22,291 nucleotides of DNA from a virus. The position numbers and the translations under genes are program-made. Of the stretch, positions 1,315-22,254 are shown one piece after another; position 1 is the stretch's first letter; each line of letters opens with the position of its first letter. Where the stretch lies: positions 1 through 22,291 of the IMG/VR virus record IMGVR_UViG_3300044695_000895. The stretch is one strand, 5' to 3'. The notes beneath the pieces were generated by a model. It searched no databases. It saw nothing but the letters and a program-made list of their open reading frames with translations, and was not told the origin of the DNA.

Positions 1315-1805
1315 CTGCCATTGCCTTTAGCAGGGGTAACAAGTATAACGCCTGTTGTTGCATTAGCCTTTAAAACCACTCCTACGGCTCCTGAGCCACC
1401 TGCTGGCTGTGTTGCTGTAAGTCCTCCAGTTGTTCCAACATATAAAATATTTCCAGCGGTATATGAAGAAGTATTTACTCCAGTAAAAATACCAGAAATA
1501 AGTGCTACGCCATCACTACCATTTGTAATAGAAGTTGTTGCTAATCCTATTACTGGAAAGGTTGCAAGGTTTGTTGATACCGATTTTGCAACGGTAGTTT
1601 TAGTAGAAAACCCTGTAGCATAAATAGGATCACCTTTAGCAATTGTTACACCACTGTTATTTCTTATTTCATGTGTAAAATATGGTAAACCTAGGCTTGG
1701 GAGTACCGCTTCAATTCTCTCTGCTAAGGCTTGGATATCACCTGCGACATCAACTGCGTCTGTGTCTAAAGGAAAAGGTAAGTCATAAATTGTAGTTTCA
1801 GCCAT
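1284..1805 (-). CDS. Tail-fibre or minor virion protein
   Basis: 173 aa. The N-terminus (MAETTIYDLPFPLDTDAVDVAGDIQALAERIE, broken here for description) resembles the anchoring segments of phage fibre proteins. The rest is rich in Gly, Thr, Ser and Val with short beta-type repeats (IYATGFSTKTTVAKS, LYVGTTGGLTATQPAG). The ATG at 1805 lies 10 nt after TGG-TATAAT (1816-1824) and has no Shine-Dalgarno. It is the first minus-strand gene downstream of the inverted endolysin, so it needs its own promoter. Virion surface role inferred from composition and position. Confidence 0.7.
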   Translation of the reverse strand: MAETTIYDLPFPLDTDAVDVAGDIQALAERIEAVLPSLGLPYFTHEIRNNSGVTIAKGDPIYATGFSTKTTVAKSVSTNLATFPVIGLATTSITNGSDGVALISGIFTGVNTSSYTAGNILYVGTTGGLTATQPAGGSGAVGVVLKANATTGVILVTPAKGNGSWGAVKAGLS

Positions 1806-1815
1806 GATAACAATT

Positions 1816-1824
1816 ATTATACCA
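1816..1824 (-). promoter_or_regulatory. Extended -10 late promoter
   Basis: Minus strand TGGTATAAT, 10 nt before the ATG at 1805, so the 5' leader would be only about 3 nt. Confidence 0.5.
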
Positions 1825-1872
1825 CTTCATGAGGATTATATTTTATAATTTTATAAAAATGTTGTCTAAAAG

Positions 1873-1902
1873 TTGACCTTTAAGTCCAAAAGATGCTATA
1901 AT
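1873..1902 (+). promoter_or_regulatory. Endolysin promoter
   Basis: TTGACC at 1873-1878, an 18-nt spacer, and TATAAT at 1897-1902 preceded by TGC, so it also has the extended -10 form. The predicted start near 1909 coincides with the first base of the leader hairpin. Confidence 0.7.
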
Positions 1903-1908
1903 TAATAT

Positions 1909-1928
1909 ATGCTACCAACAGGTAGCAT
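1909..1928 (+). promoter_or_regulatory. Perfect hairpin at the 5' end of the endolysin mRNA
   Basis: ATGCTACC and GGTAGCAT pair over 8 bp with the four-base loop AACA. It would form the very 5' end of the transcript, which commonly protects an mRNA from 5' decay. A strong AGGAGG Shine-Dalgarno follows at 1938-1943. Confidence 0.7.
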
Positions 1929-1952
1929 TTGTTCTCTAGGAGGTAATTTACA

Positions 1953-2498
1953 ATGAGAGAAGCAAAAGTTTGGCTAGGGGTGTTGGTTTTGGTTATTTGC
2001 AGTGCCGTTTTTTCTGGTGCTGCAAGAGCCACTGCTGAAAACAACTTATTAAGTAAAGACTCTATGGAAATCTCCGCCACCCCCAAGGTGGCTTTTTTGG
2101 TTTCTAAAGAGAAAAAACTTGAAAGATATGAAAATGCTCACAAGTTGACTGATGAGCAACTAGTTGATATGTTAAAGGCTGTAGGGTTTAAGGGAAAGGC
2201 TTTGAGATCTGCTTGTGCTATTGCTAAGGCAGAGTCTAATGGTCGCCCCCTTGCTTTCAACGGTAACGTAAAAACTGGAGATAGTTCCTATGGCGTATTT
2301 CAAATAAATATGCTTGGAGAACTAGGGTCAGATCGTAGAGAAAAATTTGAACTGGATTCAAACGCTGAGTTATTAAACCCAGTAGTAAATGCAGAGATTG
2401 CTCTTCACATGACTAAGGGTGGAGCAGATTGGTCTTCATGGAGTTCCTTGAATGGAAAACGGTATCACGAGTGGTACAACAAATATCCATGTAAGTAA
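1953..2498 (+). CDS. Secreted lysozyme-like endolysin / lytic transglycosylase
   Basis: 181 aa. A signal peptide is clear: basic MREAK, hydrophobic core at about 6-20 and an SGAARA|TA cleavage site near 26. A linker with charged residues precedes an SLT/lysozyme-like domain at about 65-181. It carries the catalytic-type glutamate E94 in AKAESNG and the SSYGVFQIN motif at 111-119, typical of transglycosylase and goose-type lysozyme folds. It should cleave peptidoglycan outside the membrane, so it may not depend on a large holin pore. It is the only plus-strand gene inside the minus-strand late block, with its own promoter, leader hairpin and terminator. Lysin assignment is strong; the exact bond cleaved is not shown. 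Confidence 0.85.
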   Translation: MREAKVWLGVLVLVICSAVFSGAARATAENNLLSKDSMEISATPKVAFLVSKEKKLERYENAHKLTDEQLVDMLKAVGFKGKALRSACAIAKAESNGRPLAFNGNVKTGDSSYGVFQINMLGELGSDRREKFELDSNAELLNPVVNAEIALHMTKGGADWSSWSSLNGKRYHEWYNKYPCK

Positions 2499-2510
2499 TA
2501 TAATTTGATA

Positions 2511-2556
2511 AACAAATGCCCCCCATTGGAGTAAAATCTTTTGGGGGGTTTGTTGT
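2511..2556. terminator. Bidirectional terminator between endolysin and tail genes
   Basis: AACAAA-TG-CCCCCCA (2511-2525) pairs with TGGGGGG-TTTGTT (2542-2554) with a two-base bulge, followed by TGTTT and an AT-rich tract. It lies between the convergent endolysin and the minus-strand gene ending at 2568 and can serve both. Confidence 0.8.
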
Positions 2557-2567
2557 TTAATTATTTA

Positions 2568-2822
2568 TTATGCAGGTGTTTCTTCTGCAGGTGTTCTTAC
2601 TCCTGTTTCAATCCATACTTTGTTTGCTTCATCCCAGGTATCACCAATGTATGGCTTACCAAATGAGCAGCAACATACTGCCTTGACGTATCCAATTGCT
2701 TCTGCAAATGCTTGGATTTCTGTATCGTTGTGTGCATCTTCTGCAAATACTGCAATTGTTTCAACTACATTATCTGCATTAAGAAATGCGTGTTCGTGTT
2801 CATCTAAATGTGTGATAGTCAT
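2568..2822 (-). CDS. Small 'MAH'-type protein paired with Gly-rich adhesin
   Basis: 84 aa, beginning MTITHLDEHEHAFLN. The ATG is 2 nt after the stop of the adhesin gene (junction GGATAATTATG), so translation is probably coupled. A GTG 15 nt upstream lies in the adhesin's end and is less likely. The segment HAFLNADNVVETIAVF resembles HYAFLNEDNIVTHVI (7821-8333) and MAHFARVENNIVREVIV (4714-4977), and all three genes directly follow a Gly-rich adhesin gene. The C-terminus has WDEANKVWIETG, also W-rich. A role as tail-fibre assembly partner is inferred from this repeated pairing. Confidence 0.7.
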   Translation of the reverse strand: MTITHLDEHEHAFLNADNVVETIAVFAEDAHNDTEIQAFAEAIGYVKAVCCCSFGKPYIGDTWDEANKVWIETGVRTPAEETPA

Positions 2823-2824
2823 AA

Positions 2825-3808
2825 TTATCCAATCCACTTAACAATAACAATTCCTGATGCACCATTACCACCAGCACCACCAGTGCCAGCACCTGCAGAA
2901 CCAGTATTACCACCAGAGCCGCCTGCGGCACCAGTATTGGTACCAGCATTTCCACCAGTTCCGCCAATTAAACCATTGGCAAACCCACCACCACCACCAG
3001 CACCAGGTCCACCTTGACCCGATGTTAAACCACCACCGTATGGAGGAACTCCTCCACCACCAGCAATTCCTAAAACTCCTGCAGCGCCACCAAAACTTGT
3101 ATTGTTAGAATTATTTGCACCAGCCGTTGCTGTTCCAATATAAGCATTAACATTAAAAGAATTTAAAGATTGAAATGTATAAGCATTTCTACTATTGCCT
3201 GCGTTTGGATACATTTGTCCAGGAGCACTTCCATAAGTGTCATTAGTAGCACTAGAAATACTTGCTACGCCACCTTCACCACCTGACAAACCATAAGCAT
3301 CAAAACCGTGATAGACTCTATAACTACTTGTAACACTTGCTATTCCTCTAAGATTAGTTGGAGAAGTAAGCATTGGAGATATAGTTGCTGAGTCGTAATC
3401 AACTGGCTGGGCACCTGCTGCTTTGGTTCCAGGATATCCTGGTCCTGCATAATAACCACCACCACAATAACCATATGTTCCAAACCCAGACCATCCAGCA
3501 TTGCTAGCCAGTGTTAAACCAGTGGTTGCTGCAATTCCAGCAGTTCCATTACTTCCAGCACCAACAACTACTGCTACTGTTCCAGTTCCACCCAAATAAA
3601 GGTTTCTTAAAATTAAAACTCCACCACCACCTGCAACGCTATCAGTATTAGTTGTATTTCTACGTCCACCCGTAGAGCCAGCACCTCCACCTACAATTAA
3701 AACGTCTACAAATTGTGCGGTAGATGGAACTGTCCAGGTTTGAGAAGATGTAAAGGCAACAATATTATTTTGCACTCCAGCAACTGCTGGAATTGTATTT
3801 AATGCCAT
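2825..3808 (-). CDS. Gly-rich tail adhesin 1
   Basis: 327 aa. After a short N-terminus (MALNTIPAVAGVQNN) a beta-rich part, FTSSQTWTVPSTAQFVDVLIVGGGAG, leads into long Gly-rich stretches in which GGG runs alternate with Tyr, Asn and Ala to the C-terminus (GIVIVKWIG). This architecture matches the phage 'glycine-rich domain' fibre-tip proteins. By analogy with T4-type gp38 adhesins it probably binds the host surface through exposed loops. Its ATG overlaps the stop of the upstream 100-aa gene (TAATG). The plus-strand His/Pro-rich frame across it is a shadow. Confidence 0.82.
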   Translation of the reverse strand: MALNTIPAVAGVQNNIVAFTSSQTWTVPSTAQFVDVLIVGGGAGSTGGRRNTTNTDSVAGGGGVLILRNLYLGGTGTVAVVVGAGSNGTAGIAATTGLTLASNAGWSGFGTYGYCGGGYYAGPGYPGTKAAGAQPVDYDSATISPMLTSPTNLRGIASVTSSYRVYHGFDAYGLSGGEGGVASISSATNDTYGSAPGQMYPNAGNSRNAYTFQSLNSFNVNAYIGTATAGANNSNNTSFGGAAGVLGIAGGGGVPPYGGGLTSGQGGPGAGGGGGFANGLIGGTGGNAGTNTGAAGGSGGNTGSAGAGTGGAGGNGASGIVIVKWIG

Positions 3809-12786: not shown

Positions 12787-13383
12787 GTGCTAGATATCAT
12801 TAAGAATATTCTCATTGAAGGTTTGACAGAAAAATTAAAAATTCATCACTCTGTCTACCGTCTTCCATGCACCTCAGAATTTTTGGAGGAATTGATATCA
12901 AACACCTTTACCCAGAATGGTCTAATAAACGACTGGCAGCCCAATAGAAGCCATAGCGTCAGTGTTGATATGTCATTGGAGTCAGGCGAATCTTTTTCTA
13001 TCAAATCAGGAGTGTATGCAAATAACACACTCACCTTCTCTGGATCCAGGTTAGGCAAACATGAAACCTTAGATGCCATGATATCTAGCGTTGTCTCTAA
13101 TAGTGCTGATTACTATGTGTGTCTTGCAAAAGCAGATCAGGATTGGTCTTCTGTCCCCTCGCAAAATGAGACAAAGATATATTATCTATTTGTATTTGAT
13201 GCCCAAACCTTAATATACGATAACGGACTATGGAATAAGGTTCAAACCAAGTCTGGAGGATATAATTATGTTATGGAGTCTATAGGCATGTCAGCACGTA
13301 TTAATACCTCTATGTCTTCTCAGTTATGGACTAGTGTTAATGATGCTCTTATAGGTCCCCCGACAAAATTGGAAATATTATGA
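12787..13383 (+). CDS. Unknown protein, possible restriction-like nuclease
   Basis: 198 aa, GTG start, no Shine-Dalgarno, directly after TATAAT. No family recognised with certainty. Acidic residues in the helix EFLEEL (31-36), D61, and S71-I-K73 within ESFSIKSG are spaced like a variant PD-(D/E)xK active site. TFSGSRLGKHETL, DYYVCLAK and YYLFVFDAQTLIY follow, as in core strands of type II restriction enzymes. It overlaps the next gene (ATGA). Placed as an accessory gene between the late block and speD. Nuclease function is a low-confidence inference. Confidence 0.55.
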   Translation: MLDIIKNILIEGLTEKLKIHHSVYRLPCTSEFLEELISNTFTQNGLINDWQPNRSHSVSVDMSLESGESFSIKSGVYANNTLTFSGSRLGKHETLDAMISSVVSNSADYYVCLAKADQDWSSVPSQNETKIYYLFVFDAQTLIYDNGLWNKVQTKSGGYNYVMESIGMSARINTSMSSQLWTSVNDALIGPPTKLEIL

Positions 13384-13571
13384 GTGCCAAACCTTGGGAT
13401 ATGATCAATGGTTCTCCTAGAGTGCCAGAAGAAGTTATTAAAGAGAGATTAGATATTTGTCATGCATGCCCTGCTTTTAGACCACTTACGCAGACATGTA
13501 AGAAGTGTGGATGCTTTATGAAGATGAAGACTCAGTTGGAAAAAGCCTATTGTCCACTTGGCAAGTGGTAA
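13380..13571 (+). CDS. Small Cys-rich zinc-binding-like protein
   Basis: 63 aa. CHACPAF, then C-x2-C-x-C (CKKCGCFM) and a late CPLGKW give six cysteines, probably one or two metal sites. Small proteins with this order (C-x2-C, CxxCGCxMxxKtxL, CPxGKW) are common in environmental phages, function unknown. The start overlaps the stop of the upstream gene (ATGA). A nucleic-acid or protein-binding role is possible. Confidence 0.8.
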   Translation: MSAKPWDMINGSPRVPEEVIKERLDICHACPAFRPLTQTCKKCGCFMKMKTQLEKAYCPLGKW

Positions 13572-13609
13572 GAAATGCTGTATACTGAATATCTTGGAAT
13601 GGGGGAAAT

Positions 13610-14020
13610 ATGTTATTTCACAAACACTTATTGATCAACGCTAAAGTTGAAAAACCAATGAAGACTGAAGGCCAAGCAATGGCTTTCTTAGAAAAGTTGG
13701 TTGAACGTATTGACATGAAAATTATTAAAGGTCCTTTTGCTTCTTATGTTGACAAACCAGGAAATAGGGGACTCACTGCTATTGTAATGATTGAGACTAG
13801 CCATATAGCATTTCATATATGGGATGAACAGGACCCATCATTAGTACAGTTTGATTTGTATACCTGCGGAAAATTGGATCTGCCTGAAGTCTTAAATGTA
13901 ATCCGTGAAGATTTTGATATCGTGTCTATGGACTATAACTTGTTTGACAGAGAGAATGGGTTCGTCTTAGAGCAGAGTGGATCATACCCTGACAAATATG
14001 ACATGCTTGTAGAAATCTGA
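13610..14020 (+). CDS. speD: S-adenosylmethionine decarboxylase-like proenzyme (SpeD family)
   Basis: 136 aa, close to the usual length of prokaryotic SpeD. The N-terminal HKHLLINAKVEKP fits the first strand. GNRGLTAIVMIETSHIAFHIW contains the self-cleavage site: Ser64 would become the pyruvoyl cofactor, His69 and Cys86 (DLYTCG) match the processing and catalytic residues. The residue before Ser64 is Thr, where classical SpeD has Glu, and two extra residues lie between His69 and Cys86. SpeD makes decarboxylated SAM for spermidine; some relatives decarboxylate ornithine or arginine instead, so the substrate is open. GGGGGAAAT ribosome site precedes the ATG. Confidence 0.85.
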   Translation: MLFHKHLLINAKVEKPMKTEGQAMAFLEKLVERIDMKIIKGPFASYVDKPGNRGLTAIVMIETSHIAFHIWDEQDPSLVQFDLYTCGKLDLPEVLNVIREDFDIVSMDYNLFDRENGFVLEQSGSYPDKYDMLVEI

Positions 14021-14098: not shown

Positions 14099-14137
14099 AC
14101 AAAAAAAATAGTGAGCACACACATCGCATGCCCACTA
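14099..14137 (-). terminator. Rho-independent terminator of the small minus operon
   Basis: On the minus strand TAGTGGGC pairs with GCTCACTA (one mismatch) and is followed by eight T and more T-rich sequence. It ends the 14700-14148 operon and faces the speD gene. Confidence 0.8.
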
Positions 14138-14140
14138 CTT

Positions 14141-22173: not shown

Positions 22174-22247
22174 GGAGTGTTAGCATAGTTGGTTAATGCG
22201 CTACCCTGTCACGGTAGAGATCACGGGTTCAAGTCCCGTACACTTCG
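22174..22247 (+). tRNA. tRNA-Asp (anticodon GTC)
   Basis: Acceptor stem GGAGTGT/ACACTTC (one G-U) with discriminator G, D stem GCAT/ATGC, anticodon stem CTACC/GGTAG with loop CTGTCAC (anticodon GTC), T stem ACGGG/CCCGT with loop TTCAAGT. 74 nt. CCA is not encoded. It likely supplements translation of the phage's Asp-rich proteins. Confidence 0.93.
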
Positions 22248-22254
22248 CAAATGC

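Follow-up and report, generated by a model that had tools for sequence, protein, structure and literature searches.

A SpeD-fold proenzyme gene of a freshwater phage and its placement beside a pelagiphage arginine decarboxylase

The window analysed here is the whole stretch of 22,291 nucleotides taken from IMG/VR virus record IMGVR_UViG_3300044695_000895, whose source is a freshwater phage. On its plus strand, an ATG-initiated gene at 13610..14020 encodes a SpeD-fold proenzyme of 136 aa, as indicated by Pfam, PHROG and a structural model, and a ribosome-binding-like GGGGG (13601..13605, plus strand) is located 4 nt before the start codon. Self-cleavage is expected at the junction of Thr63 and Ser64 (codons ACT AGC, 13796..13801, plus strand), the latter being the expected pyruvoyl source, and would yield a beta chain of residues 1-63 and an alpha chain of residues 64-136. 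By alignment, the plus-strand codons of His69 (13814..13816) and Cys86 (13865..13867) correspond to His68 and Cys83 of the T. maritima enzyme, and a profile alignment put two residues that are extra relative to SpeD at approximately Gln80-Phe81 (13847..13852, plus strand). The upstream neighbour is a gene for a 63-aa Cys-rich protein (DUF6171, phrog_13558; 13380..13571, plus strand), which had a relative in 26 of 80 related loci and is itself preceded by a gene for a 198-aa protein of no known family (12787..13383, plus strand; a relative in 17 of the 80). A sigma-70-like promoter match, TTGGCA-17-TATACT, was found at 13558..13586 (plus strand) in a scan whose overall yield was not above that of shuffled sequence (7 found vs 8.2 expected). 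Downstream, a terminator-like stem-loop of 16 pairs with a T-run lies on the minus strand at 14106-14140, between speD and the following minus-strand ORFs, and a tRNA-Asp (GTC) gene is present at 22174-22248, close to the right end of the window.

The 136-aa product matched Pfam AdoMet_dc (PF02675) with E=9.6e-14 and 52.1 bits (curated cut-off 25) and PHROG_3125, S-adenosylmethionine decarboxylase, with E=1.4e-17. An AlphaFold2 model built with 41 related sequences had a mean pLDDT of 92.8, and in the PDB it best matched SpeD of T. maritima, with a TM score of 0.80 normalised by target length and an rmsd of 1.8 for chain 1vr7_B. With the PF02675 cut-off passed, a SpeD fold, and Ser64, His69 and Cys86 all in place, the protein belongs to the SpeD superfamily. 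Its junction region reads IVMIETSHIAFHIWDEQDPSLVQFDLYTC, and between His and Cys it has two residues more than the aligned PDB SpeD chains. Thus, the features that the initial annotation had noted from the DNA alone, namely a SpeD-like protein with the three self-processing residues, Thr before the cleaved bond and a two-residue insertion before the Cys motif, are real, as is the ORF itself, and the structure prediction that it had proposed agrees with them.

An IMG/VR scan revealed 214 stretches with relatives, 80 of which were fetched and examined. These proteins were 64-90% identical to the window protein and 126-182 aa long, save one start-trimmed member. Thr63-Ser64 followed by His was kept in all 80, and Thr63, Ser64, His65, His69, Trp71, Asp72, Glu73 and Cys86 were invariant in the 78 members scored by position, as was Ile70 within the family. 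Pairwise dN/dS against close relatives was 0.06-0.12 in the nine computable pairs, with two further pairs saturated. The conservation of Thr-Ser-His, these ratios and the model match put the gene far beyond chance, and the family is a maintained one under purifying selection rather than a set of decayed copies. We also searched 84,980 species genomes for a cellular source, using two conserved motifs only, which a diverged source could escape. Two loci were detected, both on phage-like contigs within bacterial MAGs, so that no cellular donor was found in this set. These carrier contigs (L090 and L091, in Paceibacterota and Neomarinimicrobiota MAGs) look phage-derived and hence were probably misbinned; in L091, phage-type helicase, DNA polymerase and ribonucleotide reductase ORFs adjoin the SpeD gene.

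Of 23 related records, 15 contained WhiB, an actinobacterial regulator that Corynebacterium alone has among the control genomes. In the window, the DUF932 protein was nearest to Streptomyces phages (52%) and the gp88 protein to mycobacteriophages (56%). On the basis of these genes, the host of this phage group is probably an actinobacterium. The host may be one of the freshwater acI bacteria, a guess that we base on the GC content of 39% and general knowledge. Putative spermidine/putrescine transporters have been reported in acI bacteria (PMC5574706). A single PF02675 copy was observed in all 32 related records in which it was counted. The 23 related records contained no agmatinase, no member of the deoxyhypusine/homospermidine synthase family and one marginal match to spermidine synthase; since many of these records are fragments, such absences are weak evidence.

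Classical class 1b SpeD proteins (T. maritima, B. subtilis and cyanophage S-PM2) share with the window protein the fold, the processed Ser, the catalytic His and Cys, and the Trp after the His. The window protein differs from them in having Thr63 for Glu before the Ser, Asp72 for the Pro of HTWPE (with which we equated the published Pro by inference), two extra residues, and a score below the cut-off of the TIGR03330 AdoMetDC equivalog (45.2 vs 75.65 bits). The HTWPE Pro is also missing in phiYS40 and phiN3, which are tested AdoMetDCs. The phiN3 protein, placed close to SpeDC, has an Asp-Ser junction; this agrees with the idea that Thr marks the loss of AdoMet activity, although it is a single case.

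According to Li and colleagues (PMC10407285), the SpeD-derived pyruvoyl ornithine decarboxylases (SpeDC), which occur in bacteria, archaea and lake phages, have four diagnostic residues, Gln, Thr, Phe and Tyr, of which the Thr precedes the processed Ser in active, self-processing enzymes. We mapped these four positions from SpeDC-type sequences of CPR genomes and phages; their pattern resembles VQLIETSNICAHF....DAYIDVFSC and places Thr immediately ahead of the processed Ser. The window protein resembles SpeDC in its fold and Glu-Thr-Ser junction, but on this mapping it carries one of the four hallmarks (Thr63): Val59 replaces Gln at -5, Ile70 stands where SpeDC has Phe next to the catalytic His, and the Tyr that precedes the Cys motif in SpeDC is missing. 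It also departs from SpeDC in His65 and Trp71, which are as in classical SpeD, and in the two extra residues. In the 2023 study (PMC9992855), the lake-phage proteins with ornithine activity were 117-122 aa long, a range into which most of the phage SpeDC collected here fall. None of these tested enzymes (LBP and UCP01-04) was identified among our phage-collection matches, and they were compared with the window family by length only; given its 126-182 aa, the window family has probably not yet been assayed.

The nearest tested relative is the SpeD homolog of pelagiphage HTVC201P, a pyruvoyl-dependent arginine decarboxylase with no ornithine or lysine activity, which did not restore spermidine and had no AdoMetDC activity (PMC9992855, from the group that also described SpeDC). 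This protein (AXH71538, SpeDA) reads LQAIETSHIAFHSWDEDEPAMVQLDVYTC and shares Thr-Ser and the SHIAFH.WDE motif with the window protein; both also have the two-residue insertion ahead of the Cys motif and are encoded by a stand-alone single gene. Judging from these sequences, neither Thr-Ser nor the insertion is private to the window phage. On the other hand, the two proteins are only ~45% identical, and HTVC201P has Gln at -5 and Ser after the catalytic His where the window protein has Val59 and Ile70. Pelagiphages have Gln-Leu at the insertion rather than Gln80-Phe81, the C-terminus of the window protein is longer, the pelagiphage gene adjoins ribonucleotide reductase genes, and the probable hosts of the window phages are actinobacterial, not SAR11. 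HTVC115P, in the same clade as HTVC201P, also lacks Gln at -5. A second likely arginine decarboxylase, BAR31446, was absent from the one marine record examined.

A careful tree of 54 sequences was built, along with a wider quick tree, with SpeDC represented by CPR-genome stand-ins for the named references (Methanospirillum and others). In the 54-sequence tree, the window family grouped with the pelagiphage proteins, including HTVC201P, in one clade (99/98). SpeDC together with the phiN3 protein formed its sister (99/96 for the two sister clades combined), and classical SpeD stood on the opposite side (98/91); the wider tree was in agreement. A constraint that united the window family with SpeDC and left the pelagiphage proteins out was rejected (p=0.035), whereas joining the window/pelagiphage clade to classical SpeD was not rejected by the AU test (p=0.235), which makes the deep branching tentative. 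When scored with group profiles, the window protein reached 126.7 bits for pelagiphage, 59.7 for SpeDC and 53.7 for SpeD. No match was obtained when a CPR stretch containing SpeDC served as a DNA query. Thus, the tree comparison suggested at the outset groups the protein with HTVC201P and apart from SpeDC as well as classical SpeD, and on sequence grounds we assign it to a probable actinophage clade of an established enzyme type, the pyruvoyl amino acid decarboxylases derived from SpeD.

We infer that this class 1b SpeD-fold proenzyme would cut itself between Thr63 and Ser64, and that its pyruvoyl group would decarboxylate a basic amino acid in place of S-adenosylmethionine. By analogy with HTVC201P, the reaction would most likely be that of L-arginine to agmatine, a product that could contribute to the polyamines of the infected cell, which is probably actinobacterial. 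That the protein is a self-processing amino acid decarboxylase not using AdoMet appears likely. Since the closest homolog of tested activity acts on arginine, we favour arginine as the main substrate, with slightly better than even confidence. The ~45% identity, Val at -5, the AU result and the want of a phage agmatinase were counted against it; as no agmatinase was detected in the phage genomes searched, agmatine would have to be used by the host. Together with that level of identity, the differences at -5 and after His69 leave room for ornithine or another substrate. The same self-processing enzyme might act on L-ornithine, or on ornithine and arginine, and make putrescine directly, which would require no agmatine pathway. 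Thr before Ser, a SpeDC hallmark (PMC10407285), and the sister relationship to SpeDC are consistent with this, as are five freshwater phage homologs described as HTVC201P-like and ornithine-active, one of them also on arginine (PMC9992855). However, the other three SpeDC residues, as mapped, are missing, the protein falls outside the SpeDC clade, and the family is longer than the tested ornithine-active phage proteins; we regard ornithine use as possible but rather unlikely.

The remaining readings appear less plausible still. A true AdoMet decarboxylase with an unusual junction would fit the fold and the classical His65 and Trp71, the AU test allows a grouping with SpeD, and the tested AdoMetDCs phiN3 and phiYS40 also deviate from the usual motif (PMC9992855). 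It is nevertheless improbable in view of Thr for Glu and Asp for Pro, the TIGR03330 score, the lone marginal spermidine synthase match among the 23 records, and the inactivity of the nearest tested relative on AdoMet (PMC9992855). The initial annotation had raised the idea of a new specificity: the protein is indeed not a classical SpeD and has probably lost AdoMet use, but Thr-Ser is no pointer to a new specificity, since SpeDC and HTVC201P have Thr as well. A pyruvoyl enzyme acting on an amine acid other than arginine, ornithine or AdoMet would accord with Val at -5, where SpeDC and HTVC201P have Gln, and with the invariant Ile70, Trp71 and Asp72. Such a substrate is hardly probable because every substrate-shifted homolog tested in PMC9992855 and PMC10407285 used arginine or ornithine, and no SpeD homolog tested in these papers used lysine; the putative enzyme of HTVC115P, of the same clade, lacks the Gln too. 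Taken further, and with the same slim chance, this reading would give the actinophage clade a substrate of its own, set by invariant pocket residues in VMIETSH, AFHIWDE and QFDLYTC, and phages of freshwater actinobacteria would gain an amine that their host cannot make. The non-processing homolog that had also been suggested, whether inactive or regulatory, draws on a residue at the cut unlike that of classical SpeD and on cleavage of this family being a prediction. This reading is very unlikely: Thr precedes Ser in the active HTVC201P enzyme and in the active, self-processing SpeDC enzymes (PMC9992855 and PMC10407285), and the intact, invariant Ser64, His69 and Cys86 under strong purifying selection argue against a decayed or non-processing copy.

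These results widen the range of the SpeD-derived pyruvoyl decarboxylases, tested to date in one pelagiphage and a handful of lake phages, by a large family of probable actinophages. Virome genes of this type that are labelled 'S-adenosylmethionine decarboxylase' probably do not act on AdoMet. Since the family groups with the tested arginine enzyme and has the ornithine enzymes as its neighbours, the activity of one member would help to identify the residues separating the two activities. Our literature search found no paper on an AdoMet decarboxylase of freshwater actinophages.

Polyamine gene sets of other composition were also observed. A SpeDC-type query was used to retrieve 80 viral contigs (L190-L269), of which 44 had a second SpeD-like ORF nearby, nearly always of the classical Glu-Ser type (for example, L193, L199, L200 and L202, at about 1600-3200), and a spermidine synthase match adjoined this second ORF in 14 of the 44. 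The arrangement looks like an ornithine-to-spermidine gene cluster in putatively viral contigs. In Microcystis phage MaAM05 (MW495066.1 246315-249093; L286:2316-5094), a run of adjacent genes comprises speB (agmatinase), speE and a pair of SpeD-like genes; of this pair, one member is classical, with HTWPE, and the other reads HSFID and lacks the Pro. An arginine-to-spermidine route would be present in this one putative phage record if the HSFID protein were an arginine decarboxylase. In addition, several CPR genomes (L156, L161 and L163-L169) contain ORFs of ~440-470 aa with a C-terminal SpeD-like domain, whose junction reads like SNSN or SNSS, not ESH.
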